DNA of 64,000 nt from Pseudobacteriovorax antillogorgiicola (GTDB taxonomy: Bacteria > Bdellovibrionota_B > Oligoflexia > Oligoflexales > Oligoflexaceae). This document shows, piece by piece, positions 10,283 through 58,791 of the stretch. Under the pieces are notes generated by a model. The model saw nothing but the letters and a program-made list of their open reading frames with translations, was not told the origin of the DNA and searched no databases. The translations under genes were made by a program, and so were the position numbers. The stretch's first letter is position 1. Every line of letters starts with the position of its first letter. The stretch spans positions 310,001 to 374,000 of the forward strand of contig NZ_FWZT01000002.1 in NCBI RefSeq assembly GCF_900177345.1, given 5' to 3'.

Positions 10283-12718
10283 CTATAAAATAAGTTGAAC
10301 CACTGTGACCCCATCTCCCCCTTCTTCTTTCTCGCCAGGGCGGAAGTCTAAGTTGTAGGGAGAATCTTTGGTTAGGGCGGTACGGATCGATCGTTTTAGA
10401 ACATCCGTGCCGTGGCCATGAATGAGAATGAGCTGGGTTTCGCCCCGCAATACTGCCTTGTCGATAAACGCCCAAGTTTTCTCTAGGGCTCGCTCAACAT
10501 CTTGGCCGCGCAAATCAATGCTATTGGTGGGGGAAGGGACGATAAAGCCAATTTTTTGTGTTTTGTTTGCCGAGGTGCTCCTCTTTTTCGCTGGCTTCGT
10601 ATCTTTCGAGTTTTTGATGAGCCGCAATTCCTGTAGGGCGGGCTTGATTTTAAGAAGACCCACAGATACCTCTACAGCGGGAGGGCTTTTTTGAACTTTG
10701 GTGACTGTTGCTTCCCTTTCGAATGACACCACATAAACTTTAGATCCGACTTTCAACTGATCGATAGCTACAGGCTCCCCAGGGATGTCTTGCTTGAGCT
10801 TGTATTCATCCCCGAGTTTTTGCAAGTTAGACTCTAAAGCGCTGAGCTTATTCTCTGCCGAGCGACGGCTATCTCGGGCTTCGTCTTTTAACTCTGTTAG
10901 CTGATCTCCCGAAGGCAGTTTTTTGACCAATTTCTTAAACTGATCGGCCTGATCACGAAACTCGATCTTTAGCTTATCAATTTGATTTTGGTAAACATTG
11001 CGGATTTTCTCGGAAGCTTTCTCCTTGGCTTTGAGTAAGGCCTCGCGGTCCTGTTCCCAGCGGAACTTCTGTGACTCAGTTTCCATGCGCAGTTGTTCAA
11101 ACTTAGCTCGCTCCTGCTTGGCCTGCTCTTTGGCAGCGAGCATGTCTTCGATGATGCGGTCCATCTCGGTAGAGGACTCGCCACGGAGATCCTTTGCCCT
11201 AGCGATGACATGGGCTGGTAAACCCATCTGCTCTGCAACTTCAAGGCCGTGGGACTGACCTGGGATATCGAGCACTAGCTTATAGGTTGGCTTCAGAGTC
11301 TCCACAGAAAATTCCATCGATCCATTGCGGAAGCGTGGGTCGCTCATGGCCAAACCTTTGAGGTTGTCAAAGTGGGTGGTTACCACACCCAGAGCTTTCC
11401 GATCAGCCACGCATTCTAGAACAGCCTGACCAATGGCCGAGCCGGTCTGGGGCTCGGTGCCCACAGCGAGTTCATCTAGCAGAACCAAATCTCGCGGCCC
11501 GGCCTGCTCTAAAATCGGTTTAAGTCCAAGAACGTGGCCAGAGAAGGTGGAAAGATTGGCTTCAATATTTTGCGAGTCACCCATCTCCAGGTAGATCTCC
11601 TCAGGAAGGAATATTTCGGACTCTTCCTCTACTGGGATCAATAATCCAGCCTTGGCCATGAGGTGTAAGATTCCCACTGTTTTTAGCACAATGGTTTTAC
11701 CGCCAGCATTAGGCCCAGATACGATCAAGATATGGTTTTCGGAGTTTAACTCGATATGATTGCCGATGGCCTTGCCACCGTTTGGAGTGGTAACTAAGGG
11801 GTGCCTTGCACCTTTGAGTTTCAAGCACGGTTGATCATGAATTGTCACCGCGCAGCAGTCTAGATTCGCTGCTAGACGAGCTTTGGCGGATAGAATATCG
11901 AGCTCTACCAAGGCTTCATAGTTGGCTTTAAGGGTGTCTAGGTCAGCTGCAACTTGGGCGCTCAGCTCTCGAAAAATCCGCAGGATTTCGAGTTTCTCAT
12001 TAAGCTCTAGCTCAAGCAGGTGCTCGTTGTGTGGTTTGATCGCTTCGGGCTCAATGTAAAGAGTCTGCCCGCTATCGCTGGTATCCTGGATAGAGCCTTT
12101 GACGCGACCGCGACCGTCGAGGCGGATGGGAACCACATAGCGCTCTGATCGCACTGTGAAAAACTTATCTTGCAGATAATTTTCAACTTCATGATCAGAT
12201 AAAAGCCCTTTGATCTCGGTTTCTATGGTCTTTCTAAGAGAAAGTTTTTTTCGGCGGATACTCAGTAGTTCTGGGGAAGCACTGTCTAGAATTTCACCTT
12301 CGGGACTGATCGCTGTTTCAATGGCCGTAGCTAAATGAGGTAGCGGATAGATTGTGCGGTCGAACTTAACAAGTGTCGAACACTTTTCTGCAAAATCTGT
12401 GGTAAAACGCTGGACGCTTTTCACCGTTTGTAGAAGGCCGTAGACTTCTCTGAGGGATTCCCCGTCAAGAGTTTGCCCTAGGCTGGCTCCGCGAAAGGTA
12501 CTGGTCAGCACGGGGATGTCACCTATGGGGGGAACGTAGCCGGTGCGAATCAGGTTTTTGAGTGGAACGATTTGATTCCAACCCAGTTCAATATCATCGC
12601 GGCTAAGATTGGGCTTTAGCTCTAAGCAGTGGTCTTTGCCAGCAGTGGTCTGGGTGTAGCCCGCGAGTAAGTCAAGAAGGGTTGGCCACTGGAGTTTGTC
12701 GAGTACTAATGGTTTCAT
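10283..12718 (-). CDS. mutS2: MutS2-family DNA-binding ATPase/endonuclease
   Basis: The 811-residue protein has the MutS2 layout: N-terminal core and clamp helices, a MutS-type ATPase with Walker A GPNAGGKT at about residue 335 and Walker B VLLDELAVGTEP, a long charged coiled coil (about 520-650), a KOW-like segment (VGSKVYVVSFEREATV) and a C-terminal Smr domain with SIDLRGQDVERA and LILIHGHGTDVLK. It lacks the N-terminal mismatch-recognition domain of MutS. MutS2 proteins act in suppression of recombination or in ribosome-collision rescue. AAGGA lies seven bases before the ATG. Confidence 0.95.
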   Translation of the reverse strand: MKPLVLDKLQWPTLLDLLAGYTQTTAGKDHCLELKPNLSRDDIELGWNQIVPLKNLIRTGYVPPIGDIPVLTSTFRGASLGQTLDGESLREVYGLLQTVKSVQRFTTDFAEKCSTLVKFDRTIYPLPHLATAIETAISPEGEILDSASPELLSIRRKKLSLRKTIETEIKGLLSDHEVENYLQDKFFTVRSERYVVPIRLDGRGRVKGSIQDTSDSGQTLYIEPEAIKPHNEHLLELELNEKLEILRIFRELSAQVAADLDTLKANYEALVELDILSAKARLAANLDCCAVTIHDQPCLKLKGARHPLVTTPNGGKAIGNHIELNSENHILIVSGPNAGGKTIVLKTVGILHLMAKAGLLIPVEEESEIFLPEEIYLEMGDSQNIEANLSTFSGHVLGLKPILEQAGPRDLVLLDELAVGTEPQTGSAIGQAVLECVADRKALGVVTTHFDNLKGLAMSDPRFRNGSMEFSVETLKPTYKLVLDIPGQSHGLEVAEQMGLPAHVIARAKDLRGESSTEMDRIIEDMLAAKEQAKQERAKFEQLRMETESQKFRWEQDREALLKAKEKASEKIRNVYQNQIDKLKIEFRDQADQFKKLVKKLPSGDQLTELKDEARDSRRSAENKLSALESNLQKLGDEYKLKQDIPGEPVAIDQLKVGSKVYVVSFEREATVTKVQKSPPAVEVSVGLLKIKPALQELRLIKNSKDTKPAKKRSTSANKTQKIGFIVPSPTNSIDLRGQDVERALEKTWAFIDKAVLRGETQLILIHGHGTDVLKRSIRTALTKDSPYNLDFRPGEKEEGGDGVTVVQLIL

Positions 12719-17359: not shown

Positions 17360-19462
17360 TTACTTAAGAAATTTCAAGAGAACACCGCCGTGTGAAACAA
17401 AGAATGGGGCAAACACTAGGCTAAGAATAGCCATAAGCTTCATCAAGATATTAATCGATGGCCCGGAGGTGTCTTTGAATGGGTCGCCAACTGTGTCGCC
17501 CACCACCGCTGCTTTGTGAGCTTCTGATCCCTTGCCTCCTAAGGCTCCTGCTTCGATGTATTTCTTGGCATTATCCCAAGCGCCTCCAGAGTTGGAAGCG
17601 GAAACGGCCATCACAAGACCAGTTACTAGAGTTCCTGCGAGCAAGCCCGCAAGAGCTTCAACTCCAAACAGATAGCCGAACACGAGGGGCGTAAGCATCA
17701 CTAGCATTCCAGGTGCAATCATCTCTTTGATAGCCGCAGCTGTAGAGATGGCAACGCAGGTGCGGTGGTCAGGCTTTTCAGTGCCTTTGAGAATACCGGG
17801 CTTTTCGCGAAATTGGCGGCGAACCTCTTCGATCATGGCGTTCGCAGCAACGCCTACGCCTTTCATAGTCTGAGCAGTAAAGACGAAAGGTAGCATCCCG
17901 CCAACTAGCAGGCCGGCAAAAACCAAGGGTGAAAGCAGATCCAAAGCTTGAATGTTTGAGCGGACGAGAAAAGCTGCAAATAGGGCAAGTGCAGTAAGAA
18001 GTGCCGATCCGATAGCGAATCCTTTACCAATAGCTGCAGTGGTGTTGCCAGCAGCGTCAAGTAAGTCGGTGCGCTCACGAATCTCTGGCCCTAACTCTAC
18101 CATTTCAGCGATTCCTCCGGCGTTGTCTGACACCGGGCCGTAGGCATCGATGGTTAAGCCGATTGCGATGGTAGAGATCATGCCAAGGGCGGCAATAGCA
18201 ATGCCATACATTCCTGCTAGTGTCCAGGATAAGTAAACAGTTACGGCGAGGGCGATAACGGGTACCACGGAACTTTTATAGCCTAGGGCAAGACCGTAAA
18301 TGATGTTTGTAGCAGGCCCGGTATTGGAGGCATCTGCGACTTCCCTCACGGGTCTATAGGAGTGAGAGGTATAGAATTCGGTCACATAGCCGATCAAGAG
18401 CCCAGACCATAGCCCTGATAGCAGTGAAATAAGAACATTTGTATTGGTGACTGTTTTGCCATTGATAACGAAAGATTCAAGTAATCCCCATTTGGTAATC
18501 ACAATGCAGGCAATGGTCATTAACACGGTCGAGATTAATAGCTGCTTCTTGAGAATTGGTTCGGCGGAGGTTGCCTTGCTATCCAATCGAGCGAAGAAGC
18601 ATGTGATCAGACTAATAGGGATACCAATCGCTGAAATTATGATGGGAAAATATATAGCGAATGGATCTGCTGCGATTGCTGCGGATGTAGCCCCGATCAC
18701 TAGTGCGGCACAGGTAGCCTCAGCACAAGAACCAAAGAGGTCAGCCCCCATACCGGCGATGTCGCCAACATTATCGCCGACGTTATCTGCGATAACAGCT
18801 GGGTTTCTTGGGTCATCCTCTGGAATTCCCTGCTCAACCTTACCTACCAAGTCTGCCCCAACATCAGCAGCCTTGGTATAGATGCCGCCACCGACGCGAC
18901 CAAATAGAGCAGCTGTTGACCCACCGAGGCCGAACCCAGCAACCATTTCCATTAGTAACTCTTTTTCTTCGATGATTGAACCATAGGCGATACACATGGT
19001 AATCAAGCCGAAAACCGCAAGTCCAACAAGCCCAAAGCCCATAACTGCACCAGACTGGAAGGCAACAGAGAAGGCTTCTGATAAACCGATTTTGGCCTTG
19101 ATTGTAGTTCGCACGTTACCCATTGTTGCGATCTTCATACCGAGGAAAGCTGATAGACTTGAAGTCAGGGCGCCGATCAGAAAGGAAATCGCGCTGTATA
19201 CACCCTCGTGAAGTGGTGTATTACTATGGTCGAGAGTTAGTATCATGAGCCCTGCAAACGCGATGGCAAAGATGCCAACATACTTATACTCTTTTGCCAG
19301 AAAAGCCATGGCACCTTCGGCGATGGCCTCTGAGATATCTTTAAACTTAGCTTCCTGCTCTGGAGTATCACCGACAACGGGAATGCGAACGACAGATCTA
19401 GCGAAGTATAGGGCAGTTATCATAGCCATTAGTGAGCTGCCATAGATAAGAAAAATAACCAA
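17360..19462 (-). CDS. hppA: Membrane-bound ion-pumping pyrophosphatase
   Basis: The 700-residue protein has about 16 membrane segments and couples hydrolysis of pyrophosphate to pumping of H+ or Na+ across the inner membrane. The substrate site is shown by [20 protein letters not shown] and [18 protein letters not shown]. The [10 protein letters not shown] motif has Ala where K+-independent enzymes have Lys, so it should belong to the K+-stimulated class. The ion pumped cannot be told with certainty. Start: TTG 19462 has AGGAGG seven bases upstream and gives the normal N-terminus; the longer frame from TTG 19516 has no ribosome site. Confidence 0.95.
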
Positions 19463-19516
19463 CGAGGTCCCTCCTGAGTGCTTGTCATCCACTGTGGTAT
19501 CCTCAGTATTCTTCAA

Positions 19517-38821: not shown

Positions 38822-40990
38822 ATGAAACCCATCTTAGATTGGGAGGCTGTTTTGTTTCTAAGCGGCATAAAGTATCAGCTGGAACACGATACGAATACCT
38901 ACACCTATCGATTTCACAATGCCGAGTCGCGGTTTCGAAATGTGGTGATTCACTTCGATGGTCAGGACCCCGAACACTTGAAGTCGGCCCTTCTTTATGC
39001 CCTGACTGGCCGTGTCATTTCACCCATAACGGCAGTTCTTCTCTTTCTTGTGGATAGCAATGGCGATCAGTGGCAATTAGAGCGTCGGGGAGACCGATCT
39101 CGCTTTAGTAAAAATCGGCAAGCTATGGAGTCTGATGGTGAACAGCAGTTTAGGGAGGCCCTCCTTGATGGGCCAGATTCTGAAAGCGTCTTGTTTGACA
39201 TCTATAAAATTAGCTACCAGGAAGGTGGGCTAACAGCACAACGGGATGGTAAGGAAAGCCAGGTTGCGAGAGTTTTTCATGAGCGAGGTCAGAAAAAACT
39301 CGACGACTTGATAGGAGCCTGTGCTGGTTTTCTTACCTCTAGTCATAAAGTATCCCTACCTAATTTAGTGAGCTTCGCTCGCAAGTCACGTAGCTTATTG
39401 ACGGAATGGAGTGAAAGCAGCAGGCACCTGAACCTGCTTATGGAAAAATATGGTGCTCTTCAGGAAATCGATAGCACCGTAGTGGAAACACTAGAGCAAG
39501 AGTTGAATTTGCTCCGACGACTTGAGAAAGATGCCGAGTTTCTCAACGATCCCTCTCGGTCGTTTGATGTGATGAAACAAAAATTGAGGCGGACTCACAA
39601 GCAGCTCAGTAGCATTTGCGAAAAAAATCAAATCCTCCAGCTACCAACCCTTGATCAAGAGATCGATTGGGGGAAAGTGATCAGTTCCCTGGCTCGCCTC
39701 CAGGCTTATGAAAAGCTAGAGCAAGGTTATCGGAATTCTTTCAGTCACGTAGAAAATATGGTCAAGCCTCTCTTCCAGGAACATATTCGTTCTATGAGGG
39801 GGTTTCTATCTGAAGATAAACGCCTCTTGGGCGAAATCGAGCAGTCACTACAATCGTTAACCAATCATTGTCAGACGATTCAACAAGAGCAGCAGTCTAA
39901 AAATCAAGATAAGAGCATGCTGAAAAAGCTCTTCGGTGAGCGTGAAAATGCTCATGCAATTCCAAGTCCAAGACCAGATATTTTAGACTCAAGTAGATCG
40001 GCAGTGGATCAGGTTCTACGAGCATTGGGCTCCATGTGTTCAAATTTAGAAGTCATGACAACATCCTACACCGAAGGTTTGGATTCAATTCAGGAACGTT
40101 ATGAGAAAGTTGTGAAGGAGCGCGGAAAGGCAAAAGACGAATGGCTTGTCATAGCGAAACGCTATCAGTTCGATCCTGCCATGAATCTTAAGTCGATGCT
40201 CAACTTGATCAGCAATCTAGGTCAGATTTCCAGTCTCTATTCGCAGAAAAAAGATTTCAAGATAGAACTCACCAGCTATCGGAATAAACTCAAAAAGTTA
40301 GAAAAGATTGTCTTGGATTGGAGAGCGCTTACAGGCAGCCAGAAGTCAGGCGATCTTGATCAGGTTTCGATTTTGATATCCGAAGTGAGAAGTTTGGTTC
40401 AATACAAGGGTAAGAAAGAAGATCAATTGATCAAGGCTAGGAAACTTATCACGAAGGTTGATTTTTTCCAAAGCCTACGCCGCAACTATGAGACTTCGAT
40501 CAAGCAATGTGAGAGTCAATGGCGCAAAAACTTCTCACTGCTAGATCTTCCCTATACAGAAATTGGTGCCAAAAATTGGAATCGCTTCTTTTCAATGGTT
40601 GACCAATGCGAAGCCTTTGCAGAAATTTTAGATGATGATACCCAAACTCTTCAGAATGAGGAGGTTTTTAGTTTAAGAGCGCTCTCTTCACCATTGAATA
40701 TCTTTGCGCTTGAACCTATGGCGAAAGAGGGTCAGCTAGAGTTCATAAGGCAGATAGAAACCCTTTCTCCTCATTGTAACTTGCTGATTATACTTTACGA
40801 TAGAGATCTGGCAGAGATGCTGATCAAGCTAGGAGTCGGTTATTCTAAGGCGATAAGGTCTAAGAACATCCCTACAAACGAAGAGAGTTCTGAAAAAAAT
40901 AAATCTTCTCATGATCCCGTCATGTCAGAGAAAGCGAGAGCAGCACTTGAGTTATTTAAAGGCCGCAATGGTGCTCTATCTCACGAATAA
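38822..40990 (+). CDS. Large coiled-coil protein resembling an SMC/RecN-type ATPase with lost P-loop
   Basis: The 722-residue protein has two end segments and a long charged coiled coil between (about 160-560). Residues 38-98 have the flow of an SMC/SbcC/YhaN head: FRNVVIHFDGQDPEHLKSAL, then LYALTGRV and WQLERRGDRSRF. The Walker A would be GxxGxGKS but reads GQDPEHLKS (47-55), keeping only Gly and Lys-Ser. Near residue 631, IFALEPMAKEGQLEFIRQI followed by CNLLIILYDRDLAEM recalls the Walker B, D-loop and H-loop end of such proteins, with LEP in place of DEP. ATP hydrolysis is doubtful. No ribosome site precedes the ATG. A novel coiled-coil protein unrelated to SMC is the alternative. Confidence 0.6.
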   Translation: MKPILDWEAVLFLSGIKYQLEHDTNTYTYRFHNAESRFRNVVIHFDGQDPEHLKSALLYALTGRVISPITAVLLFLVDSNGDQWQLERRGDRSRFSKNRQAMESDGEQQFREALLDGPDSESVLFDIYKISYQEGGLTAQRDGKESQVARVFHERGQKKLDDLIGACAGFLTSSHKVSLPNLVSFARKSRSLLTEWSESSRHLNLLMEKYGALQEIDSTVVETLEQELNLLRRLEKDAEFLNDPSRSFDVMKQKLRRTHKQLSSICEKNQILQLPTLDQEIDWGKVISSLARLQAYEKLEQGYRNSFSHVENMVKPLFQEHIRSMRGFLSEDKRLLGEIEQSLQSLTNHCQTIQQEQQSKNQDKSMLKKLFGERENAHAIPSPRPDILDSSRSAVDQVLRALGSMCSNLEVMTTSYTEGLDSIQERYEKVVKERGKAKDEWLVIAKRYQFDPAMNLKSMLNLISNLGQISSLYSQKKDFKIELTSYRNKLKKLEKIVLDWRALTGSQKSGDLDQVSILISEVRSLVQYKGKKEDQLIKARKLITKVDFFQSLRRNYETSIKQCESQWRKNFSLLDLPYTEIGAKNWNRFFSMVDQCEAFAEILDDDTQTLQNEEVFSLRALSSPLNIFALEPMAKEGQLEFIRQIETLSPHCNLLIILYDRDLAEMLIKLGVGYSKAIRSKNIPTNEESSEKNKSSHDPVMSEKARAALELFKGRNGALSHE

Positions 40991-41428
40991 GACCGTGCTT
41001 TAGTGAGAGGCAGCAGTTCTTAGCAAGCATCAACTTAGGATCCTTCTTTATGTGCTTACCGGTTTGATGAAATTAATTCTCTAGTAAATCGAGGAATTAA
41101 AAGGAAAAATAATCCGAACTTTAAAGCACCACTTTTGGGCTATAAGATGCTAAAAATAAAAAAGAAAAAAAAGCTAAAGATGGTTCGAGCCTATAAAAGC
41201 AGGAAAAATTTGTGAAGGCTTCCTTTAGGAAATAAATATGGCTCCGATAAATTTGTCAACAAAGAGGAAGTAAGGAGTTCGCTGATATTTTCTATCCTCT
41301 TATTTTTGTGCTAACATTTTCATTGAGACAGCACAATGGTTTTTCTAGCAAGGTGTGTTTATGAGAGTTCCGCTCTCGTTGTCCCGTGTGGGACGCATAT
41401 TTACTTTATTTAGGAGGATTGTTCGAGT
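40991..41428 (+). promoter_or_regulatory. AT-rich upstream region of the histone H1-like gene
   Basis: No protein gene larger than the 23-codon leader was seen here. The stretch 41100-41320 is very AT-rich. The end contains two hairpins, GAGAG-TTCCG-CTCTC (41363-41377) and GTCCC-GTGT-GGGAC (41381-41394), and AGGAGG at 41412-41417, ten or eleven bases before the ATG at 41429. Confidence 0.6.
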
Positions 41429-41432
41429 ATGA
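41361..41432 (+). CDS. Possible 23-residue basic leader peptide
   Basis: An ATG at 41361 is preceded by AAGG about seven bases upstream. The frame encodes MRVPLSLSRVGRIFTLFRRI plus VRV and stops with TGA that overlaps the histone H1-like start in ATGA. The two hairpins of the leader lie inside this ORF. Such overlap usually means translational coupling. The peptide is basic and amphipathic. No expression evidence is available from sequence alone. Confidence 0.4.
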   Translation: MRVPLSLSRVGRIFTLFRRIVRV

Positions 41433-41902
41433 AAGCGACCACGAAGAAGGCCGGGGCAAAGAAAAAAACGGCTAAGAAGAAAACAGCTAAGAGAAAAGTA
41501 GCTAAGAAGAAAACAGCTAAGAAGAAAAAAGCAAAAAAGAAAGTAGCTAAGAAGAAGGCTACTCGGAAGAAAGTAGCTAAGAAGACTGTAGCAAAGAAGA
41601 AGGCCACTAAGAAAAAAGCTAAGAAGAAAGCTGCTAAGAAGAAGGCCACTAAGAAAAAAGCTAAGAAGAAAGTAGCAAAGAAGAAGGCCACTAAGAAAAA
41701 AGCTAAGAAGAAAGCTGCTAAGAAGAAAGCTGCTAAGAAGAAGGCCACTAAGAAAAAAGCTAAGAAGAAAGTAGCAAAGAAGAAGGCCACTAAGAAAAAA
41801 GTAGCCAAGAAGAAAACGACCCGTAAAAAGGCAGTTAAGAAAAAGGCTACTAAAAGACGAACAACCCGTCGTAAGGCAGCAGCTCCAGCAGAGGAAGAGT
41901 GA
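41429..41902 (+). CDS. Histone H1-like lysine-rich protein
   Basis: The 157-residue protein is about half Lys (83 by hand count), with Ala, Thr and Val in repeats such as AKKKATKKKAKKKVAKKK. It ends in RRTTRRKAAAPAEEE, a short acidic tail. It resembles bacterial histone H1-like proteins of the HC1/AlgP type that coat DNA through their basic tails. No globular domain is present. The DNA has tandem units of roughly 40 bases, so length variation between strains is expected. Codon use is heavily biased to AAG/AAA and GCT. Confidence 0.85.
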   Translation: MKATTKKAGAKKKTAKKKTAKRKVAKKKTAKKKKAKKKVAKKKATRKKVAKKTVAKKKATKKKAKKKAAKKKATKKKAKKKVAKKKATKKKAKKKAAKKKAAKKKATKKKAKKKVAKKKATKKKVAKKKTTRKKAVKKKATKRRTTRRKAAAPAEEE

Positions 41903-57069: not shown

Positions 57070-58791
57070 ATGGCAGGCCGTTTGTCCGAGACTAGTGTGG
57101 CATCGACGCTCGATGCCGGGCACAAAAGCTTACCCTGGGAACCAGGGCAACCGTCAGGATTTCTCGCAGGCATAGACTTTCATGCGATTCTTCAGAGTCC
57201 AGATGCCAAGCAAATTATCCAGTCCCTGCCAACGCAGCCTTTATACTACGGTCTGAAACGCCAGGGAATTGCTGATTGCCTTGATGTACTGCCTCATCTC
57301 ACAGATGATCAAGTGGCCCGCATTGTTGATTACGATGTCTGGAGCAAAGACCGCCTTGTACCTAAAAAAGTGTATGAGTTGCTGAACTACTTTGGCGAAA
57401 TCAGTTCTGCAGAGCTGTACCGACGCTTTGCCTACCTTGACGAAGAATACCAACTTAGCATTCTTGCTGGTCTGGTAGAAGTCTTCGACTTGGAAGAATA
57501 TGAGGCTATGACCCAAGAACAGCAAGACCTTGTCCACGCAATGCCATGCCAGCAAGTTTTTTATCGCTTGTTTAGCGACGACCCGGAAACGGTATCTTTC
57601 GTTTTGAAACTTATCTCGTCCATATGCGAGCATAATCTTCGCTACGCTTACTCAATTCTCGGTCATGCCTCGTTTGCGCTTGCCAGTGAGAGTGAAGAAG
57701 CTATTCGCCAGTTCCGCATGGCTCGCCTTGAAGAGGATGGTTTTGTACCCTATGAGGAGAGCCTATCGTGTTTTACACCGATTGATTTGCAGCACCTCAA
57801 AGATCGCTGGAGCGAAAGTAGTCCTCGTCGCCAGGGTGCGGTAGCTCAACCCACGGCTGCTGGCTCCTATCTCATGAGCATTCTAGTCCTAGCTCAGGAA
57901 AGGCAGTGGACTATGGATGAGCAGTTTGAAGTTCATCAGCAGCTGCTTTTTTTAGCCAACTCCCTTTGCAGTGCAGCCCAGGTTGAGCCAGAAGACTTGC
58001 ATGGGCTTAATCGTGTTCTAGAGCAATGTCGTGCTTTGGTCGGCCTTGGCTTGGATTATCTTTCAGATGGAGATACCGATCGTGGCCTTGCTATTCTCAA
58101 GCAGGAACATGCTAAAACTCTATTTAGAGTTGGCGTTTCCTTGATTCAGGATCTAAGAAAGCGTTTGATCGATCGGATGATGGAAGCCGAGATTCAAGGA
58201 GCCGAGGAGTTAAAGGTTCTGTTTCAAGGTGGGCAGTGGGGCCAAATACTATTCCATATCGATCGCGTGTTAAGTGATGTGCTTGGCTTTGAAGCAAGTG
58301 AAATCTTGAAAGGCCTGTTTAATCGCTTTCCTATGACACCGCAGTTTCAGGGGGATCGTAACCAACTTAAGTTCTGTCCTATCGGATCGATGTCAGATTT
58401 CGGCTTGCTTCGAGACTATGCTCTGGGCCTTTCAGGCTTATTCTACATGAAGCAGGTTGCTCAAGGTACAGGGCCATTAGAAAAGCTTTTAAGTACAGCC
58501 TTTGTTCATGGACTGATTACGCAGGAGTTTACGTTTAAGGCTTTGGATCGCGATATCTTAGAGTCGTTCATGGCGCTAAGCCAGATGGAGCTAAAGACAA
58601 AGCATGATGAGTTTGTGACTTTAATGATGACAACACTCTTGGAAACTAGCAAGAACTGGGACTTAGGATACCAAGACTACCTTAGCCAGGGTGTCCAGAA
58701 GGCGATGAGCCTATTTGATGATATTACTGCCGGCCTTATGGTTAGCCATGAAAACCAGCGTTCACCCGATCACCTTATCAGTTCGAACTAA
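57070..58791 (+). CDS. DUF6178-like protein of unknown function
   Basis: The 573-residue cytoplasmic protein is mostly alpha-helical and acidic, without signal or membrane segments. Segments such as DDQVARIVDYDVWSKDRLVP, LVEVFDLEEYEAMTQEQQD and FVPYEESLSCFTPID resemble the DUF6178 family of former delta-proteobacteria; this is from memory. No catalytic motif is evident. AAGGA lies six bases before the ATG. It is followed after 11 bases by a small acidic-protein gene, so the pair probably acts together. Confidence 0.6.
   Translation: MAGRLSETSVASTLDAGHKSLPWEPGQPSGFLAGIDFHAILQSPDAKQIIQSLPTQPLYYGLKRQGIADCLDVLPHLTDDQVARIVDYDVWSKDRLVPKKVYELLNYFGEISSAELYRRFAYLDEEYQLSILAGLVEVFDLEEYEAMTQEQQDLVHAMPCQQVFYRLFSDDPETVSFVLKLISSICEHNLRYAYSILGHASFALASESEEAIRQFRMARLEEDGFVPYEESLSCFTPIDLQHLKDRWSESSPRRQGAVAQPTAAGSYLMSILVLAQERQWTMDEQFEVHQQLLFLANSLCSAAQVEPEDLHGLNRVLEQCRALVGLGLDYLSDGDTDRGLAILKQEHAKTLFRVGVSLIQDLRKRLIDRMMEAEIQGAEELKVLFQGGQWGQILFHIDRVLSDVLGFEASEILKGLFNRFPMTPQFQGDRNQLKFCPIGSMSDFGLLRDYALGLSGLFYMKQVAQGTGPLEKLLSTAFVHGLITQEFTFKALDRDILESFMALSQMELKTKHDEFVTLMMTTLLETSKNWDLGYQDYLSQGVQKAMSLFDDITAGLMVSHENQRSPDHLISSN

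Follow-up and report, generated by a model that had tools for sequence, protein, structure and literature searches.

The gene at positions 38822-40990 (+ strand) of the analysed window, a stretch of 64,000 nucleotides from Pseudobacteriovorax antillogorgiicola, encodes a protein that by prediction is built on the head-and-arm plan of SMC and Rad50 and in which the head lacks the motifs for ATP binding and hydrolysis. The protein is a member of a previously unnamed family that is order-wide in and, as far as found, confined to the Oligoflexales; here we refer to it as the dead-head family. Combining the motif, structure and comparative data, we suggest, with a confidence that falls a little short of even, that the members of this family are catalytically dead SMC/Rad50-like proteins that function as a nucleotide-independent structural arm or tether, perhaps of the nucleoid.

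The reading frame is open for 722 codons, giving 722 amino acids from the ATG at 38822 and 712 amino acids from a TTG at 38852. The sequence GGGAGG sits just upstream of the TTG and, read from this codon, the protein begins with MFLSGIK where relatives begin with MFIDGIK, MFLTAIK or VFLNAIR, the family N-terminus M-F-L/I-x-x-I-K aligning at this position. Because of this upstream sequence and the family-like N-terminus, the TTG is more probably the real start than the ATG. GTG or TTG starts following a GGAG-type ribosome site are also apparent in many relatives. Full-length relatives of the protein exist and dN/dS for the whole protein is 0.04-0.13 in close pairs, the values being rough for those pairs that are near synonymous saturation; in close pairs, the constraint on the predicted N-lobe is mostly equal to that on the whole protein. 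The reading frame is a real, working gene under strong purifying selection.

The standard nucleotide site is missing from the entire family. The Walker A pattern [AG]x4GK[ST] and the ABC signature SGG[EQ] are both present in 0/33 aligned members, whereas each is present in 20/20 SMC, RecN and SbcC controls from the same phylum, and the strict Walker B pattern hhhhDE is found in none of the 33 members versus 16 of the 20 controls. The place of the P-loop (38954..38992, + strand; residues 45-57, FDGQDPEHLKSAL) is without a Walker A motif; across the family the loop at this position is short and variable, and it is among the less conserved parts of the protein (1.52 bits for residues 45-50 compared to a protein mean of 1.75 bits). 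An earlier note on this DNA had read the string GQDPEHLKS (residues 47-55) as a degraded Walker A motif. The string is present and a P-loop is indeed absent, but GQDPEHLKS exceeds the length of GxxxxGKS by one residue, and neither its K nor its S is conserved, both falling at helix positions that vary freely in relatives (column 54: A9 K5 S4 R4 N4; column 55: A10 Q4 H4 S3 K3). GxxxxGKS is retained in no relative (0/33), and the idea of decay is therefore not sustained, the motif being absent from the whole family. In the same way, the LEP described in place of DEP at the end of Walker B is present as ALEP (residues 629-632) but is specific to the window sequence, its counterparts in relatives reading WGEP, WDEE, WREH, NWRI and so on.

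With Walker A and the signature missing family-wide and the P-loop position poorly conserved, the loss of the motifs is ancestral, i.e. the head would be dead in the whole family rather than decaying in the window protein. Without these two motifs, it is improbable that the head binds or hydrolyses ATP in the standard manner. What is left of Walker B looks like a partial fossil: family f7 has WDEE at this position and most of f1 has W-x-E-P or similar, whereas many others are without an acid. In principle, the Walker-B-like Glu together with a conserved Asp (D660), which occupies the position of the H-loop His in 29 of 33 members, could support a non-canonical use of a nucleotide or of another small ligand, and the Glu column is acidic in roughly half of the members. 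However, a P-loop is found in no member, the loop that takes its place is short and variable, and many members of families f8, f10 and f11 lack the acidic residues of Walker B; we consider this explanation highly improbable.

Full-length AlphaFold2 prediction using 11 family sequences gave a model with a mean pLDDT of 74 and a pTM of 0.34. In this model the N-terminal part has the element order b-b-b-(loop)-helix-b-b-b-helix-b-b and is followed by helices that run out to residue 368, a flexible tip, helices that return as far as residue 604 and then strand-helix-strand-helix-strand. The predicted plan is that of an SMC/Rad50 N-lobe, an antiparallel coiled-coil arm and a C-lobe, with the two ends forming what would be an ABC-type head. 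The predicted N-lobe (38852..39265, + strand; residues 11-148) consists of strands at residues 11-20, 26-32 and 41-44, a helix at 50-62, strands at 69-78, 83-89 and 92-97, a helix at 104-114 and strands at 125-133 and 136-140. In the predicted arm (39263..40633, + strand), about 220 residues lead out (148-368) to a tip at about 369-384 and about 220 lead back (385-604), the outgoing and returning helices being equal in length. The model contains no globular hinge, the tip being disordered and about 16 residues long, and a CxxC zinc hook is present in 0/33 aligned members. The predicted C-lobe (40688..40855, + strand; residues 623-678) includes the Walker-B-like strand that ends in ALEP as well as the H-loop-like D660, and is followed by a disordered linker (40856..40924, + strand; residues 679-701), for most of which the pLDDT is below 50 and which varies in length across the family.

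In Foldseek searches of the PDB with the full-length model, the top ranks are occupied by Rad50, Lamassu LmuB, Wadjet JetC, an archaeal Smc head, MukB, cohesin and condensin, the best of these matches to SMC/Rad50/Lamassu/Wadjet heads having a probability of 1.00; among viral models, SbcC-like recombination endonuclease subunits match. Because long coiled coils can mislead structure matching, the N-lobe was also modelled alone (163 residues). This model has a pTM of 0.63 and a pLDDT of 83-91 in most core blocks, and the order of strands and helices is the same as in the full-length model. All of its top 50 PDB matches are to Rad50, RecF, cohesin/condensin SMC, the MukB N-terminus or ABC proteins of the OLD/AriA/PtuA type, the best match being Rad50 3aux (E 1.7e-3, probability 1.00). 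The TM-scores, at about 0.3-0.45, are modest, which is to be expected when half a head is modelled from a shallow alignment, and the E-values for the N-lobe are about 0.002-0.4.

The structure comparisons also bear on the possibility that the protein is an unrelated coiled-coil protein and that its likeness to an ABC head is an artefact of coiled-coil bias and of structure prediction. The low pTM of the full-length model, the shallow alignment and the lack of a significant sequence-profile match are in line with this explanation. Yet the N-lobe keeps its element order in isolation, the heads that it matches among the top 50 are solely of the SMC, Rad50, RecF or OLD type, and many other long coiled-coil proteins in the PDB are missing from the top ranks of the full-length search. 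We therefore regard a mere look-alike as very unlikely and favor an SMC/Rad50-like head. By its motifs, the family falls outside the SMC/Rad50 ATPases; by its predicted architecture, it falls among them. The head segments and long coiled coil of an SMC plan, as proposed in the earlier note, are in this way borne out by prediction, with an ABC-type head predicted both at full length and for the N-lobe alone. The pseudo-ATPase that the note went on to envisage agrees with the data as regards the predicted SMC/SbcC-like fold and the lack of Walker A and signature throughout the family.

Profile-profile comparison by hhalign of the N-lobe, the C-lobe and the whole protein with SMC, RecN and SbcC from the same phylum, three YhaN proteins and fifteen decoy families did not place the head segments above the decoys; the one better score, between the whole protein and SMC (20%), lies within the coiled coil. 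Because this comparison finds nothing significant, the kinship with SMC/Rad50 proteins rests on the predicted fold, which suggests descent from this superfamily. Searches of Pfam and NCBIfam with the window protein and 19 relatives returned only sub-threshold matches, mostly to coiled coils, PADLOC matched a few relatives weakly to LmuB/JetC but did not match the window protein, and a sequence search of the PDB gave coiled-coil noise only. The relationship to RecN, SbcC and YhaN anticipated earlier is therefore not seen at the level of profiles. For YhaN it is contradicted by further observations: the dead-head protein does not match AAA_27, its gene has no YhaO gene next to it, and one genome (G023) carries a YhaO-YhaN pair in addition to a dead-head protein. 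We have accordingly rejected the possibility that the protein is a YhaN orthologue. Among genomes G000-G055, true YhaO-YhaN pairs were seen in G011, G018 and G023 only.

The dead-head protein is similar to Rad50/SbcC in the predicted order of strands and helices in the N-lobe, in the split head and in the antiparallel arm, and Rad50 provides not only the best match to the N-lobe but also the best full-length match (C. thermophilum Rad50, 7zr1). Unlike Rad50/SbcC, it lacks Walker A, signature and zinc hook, its arm is shorter and its genome has no match to SbcD. With SMC proteins (Smc, MukB, Wadjet JetC, Lamassu LmuB) it shares the head-arm plan, and the Foldseek matches include JetC, LmuB and the P. 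yayanosii Smc head; however, it has neither a hinge nor ATPase motifs and its gene is not located beside kleisin or defence genes. RecN is of similar size and likewise has a coiled-coil arm without a large hinge, but there is no sequence match to RecN and the genome also encodes a true RecN in which all motifs are present. With YhaN (AAA_27, PF13514) only the general plan is shared. Lineage-restricted SMC-related proteins have been described in archaea in the form of coalescin/ClsN, Sph and arcadin-4 (PMC9389158). ClsN takes part in chromosome organisation, Walker A and B are retained in ClsN and Sph, as is, for the most part, a zinc hook, and the SMC-related arcadin-4 of Thermoproteales has a reported association with the cytoskeleton (PMC9389158). 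The dead-head family resembles these proteins in its lineage restriction and differs from ClsN and Sph in being without Walker A and B and a zinc hook. For ATPase-dead SMC-like proteins, we found nothing equivalent in the literature.

Three elements outside the nucleotide site stand out by their conservation. The most conserved part of the head is the b4-b5 hairpin with the motif D78-x-x-G81-x-x-W84-x-x-x-R88 (39053..39085, + strand), in which D is present in 33/33 members and G, W and R in 31/33 each. Conservation over the whole protein is highest (2.49 bits over residues 499-535) in a module of the arm, W500-R-x-x-T-G-S506-Q507-K ... E521 ... Y528 (40316..40426, + strand), at which the returning helix is broken; W500, S506 and E521 are each found in 32 of the 33 members, and W441 and W567 are likewise conserved across the family. 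The third element is a C-terminal helix, SEKARAALELFKGR (40925..40966, + strand; residues 702-715), with 2.36 bits over residues 701-716 and a DNA pattern that occurs once per genome, in the dead-head gene only, in the three genomes tested. Based on these features, we suggest that the N- and C-lobes fold together into an ABC-type head that is unable to use ATP in the standard way, and that this head carries an antiparallel arm of about 220 residues with a joint and with neither hinge nor zinc hook. In this model, the protein would be a rigid arm or tether that works independently of nucleotide. One binding platform may be made up of the head surface together with the WR..TGSQK joint, and the C-terminal helix, held by a flexible linker, may dock on a second partner.

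A profile of 19 members detected the family in 34 of 43 Oligoflexales genomes, with one copy in each; the search covered 58 genomes of the class, Oligoflexia, and of the phylum, and all 34 positives are within the Oligoflexales. A scan of 84,980 species with one genome per species gave ten family loci, all matching Oligoflexales genomes, using two degenerate peptide patterns only, so that remote relatives elsewhere could escape. The window protein alone had found no match in a first genome-wide scan, and one family alignment gave no stretch conserved enough to serve as a query. The family was not found in the plasmid collection or in the phage collection. The family tree shows 7 label changes over eight family groups, which is the minimum possible. 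Together with the single copy, the tree is consistent with vertical descent, several long branches being unsure. In one genome (G026), pyrD-HD, an H1-like reading frame and a pyrophosphatase gene are present and the dead-head gene is absent, i.e. a clean loss.

In most families pyrD and an HD-domain gene are oriented divergently to the dead-head gene, and in relatives a membrane pyrophosphatase gene is often found downstream, often with a histone-H1-like reading frame in between; in the window, the membrane H+-pyrophosphatase gene (17360-19516, - strand) is about 20 kb away. Two-component genes adjoin the dead-head gene in families f7, f8 and f11. The neighbour in the window is a gene for a Lys/Ala-rich, histone-H1-like protein (41429..41902, + strand) with tandem repeats of 15, 42 and 99 bases; its antisense strand is also open (41410-41808). 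Of the 24 loci read, 14, from several families, have a Lys-rich H1-like reading frame next to the dead-head gene; none was seen there in families f2, f5, f7 and f9. Because G026 keeps the H1-like gene without a dead-head gene, a functional tie between the two is a weak hint. Overall, the neighbours look like housekeeping genes and name no pathway. The same window also contains a tandem array at 1413-1583 (period 27, about 6.5 copies of TGCTCCTACTTTGTAGGTCGCTCTTT), a gene for a MutS2-type protein with a MutS_V and an Smr domain (10283-12718, - strand) and a gene for a DUF6178 protein (57070-58791, + strand).

By analogy to SMC and Rad50, and with the H1-like neighbour, a role in the nucleoid is weakly favored; the link is weak because the H1-like gene was not seen next to the dead-head gene in the four families named and persists where the dead-head gene has been lost. 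Direct DNA binding is not indicated, since the protein is without strong net positive charge and near neutral (pI about 6-8.7). Alternatively, the family could be a cell-architecture protein, i.e. a cytoskeletal or polar scaffold on a borrowed SMC plan as in the case of arcadin-4. The long coiled coil with its linker and tail helix, the near-neutral protein with no obvious DNA-binding charge, and neighbours of a housekeeping rather than a repair type would all suit a scaffold, but no gene for a membrane or cytoskeletal partner is linked to it with any consistency and the H1-like neighbour hints, weakly, at the nucleoid. We consider such a scaffold unlikely. For the tether that we favor, the likeliest site of action would be the nucleoid, where it would have an accessory role next to the SMC-ScpA and RecN that the cell already has.

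Intact SMC, ScpA and RecN are all present in the Pseudobacteriovorax genome, in which no match to SbcD and none to AAA_27/YhaN was found. Pseudo-enzymes often regulate active partners, and the dead head could pair with an active SMC-superfamily ATPase (SMC, RecN or another ABC protein) to regulate it. The preserved head fold in the prediction, the constraint on the N-lobe, the available SMC, ScpA and RecN and the lack of a dimerising hinge in the dead-head protein itself would be compatible with an inactive partner subunit. Head pairing, however, normally needs ATP held between the Walker A of one head and the signature motif of its partner, and here both motifs are missing. Moreover, the dead-head gene is unlinked to smc, scpA and recN (contig C2 versus C23 and C1), and genomes without the dead-head protein likewise contain SMC and ScpA. 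An inactive partner of this kind therefore seems improbable to us, and we retain the nucleotide-independent tether as the preferred interpretation. SbcD is found in 2 of 43 Oligoflexales genomes. In family f12, which belongs to the same class and is without the dead-head protein, 11 of 12 genomes have it. A replacement of SbcCD by the dead-head protein was considered and rejected, because the difference in SbcD between families counts as a single evolutionary contrast and several genomes have neither of the two.

The usual view of SMC-superfamily proteins is that of machines driven by ATP. The dead-head family is in none of the libraries searched (Pfam, NCBIfam and PADLOC). We envisage as possible, though somewhat improbable on balance, that the Oligoflexales own an ancestrally ATP-independent organiser of the SMC/Rad50 type for the chromosome (or the cell) that would function beside the normal SMC-ScpA and in which the arm joint and the tail helix replace the ATPase cycle. 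If true, the family would separate the work of the head-and-arm shape from the work of ATP, and it would provide a testable structural factor for the Oligoflexales, a poorly studied order of the Bdellovibrionota that is mostly without SbcCD.
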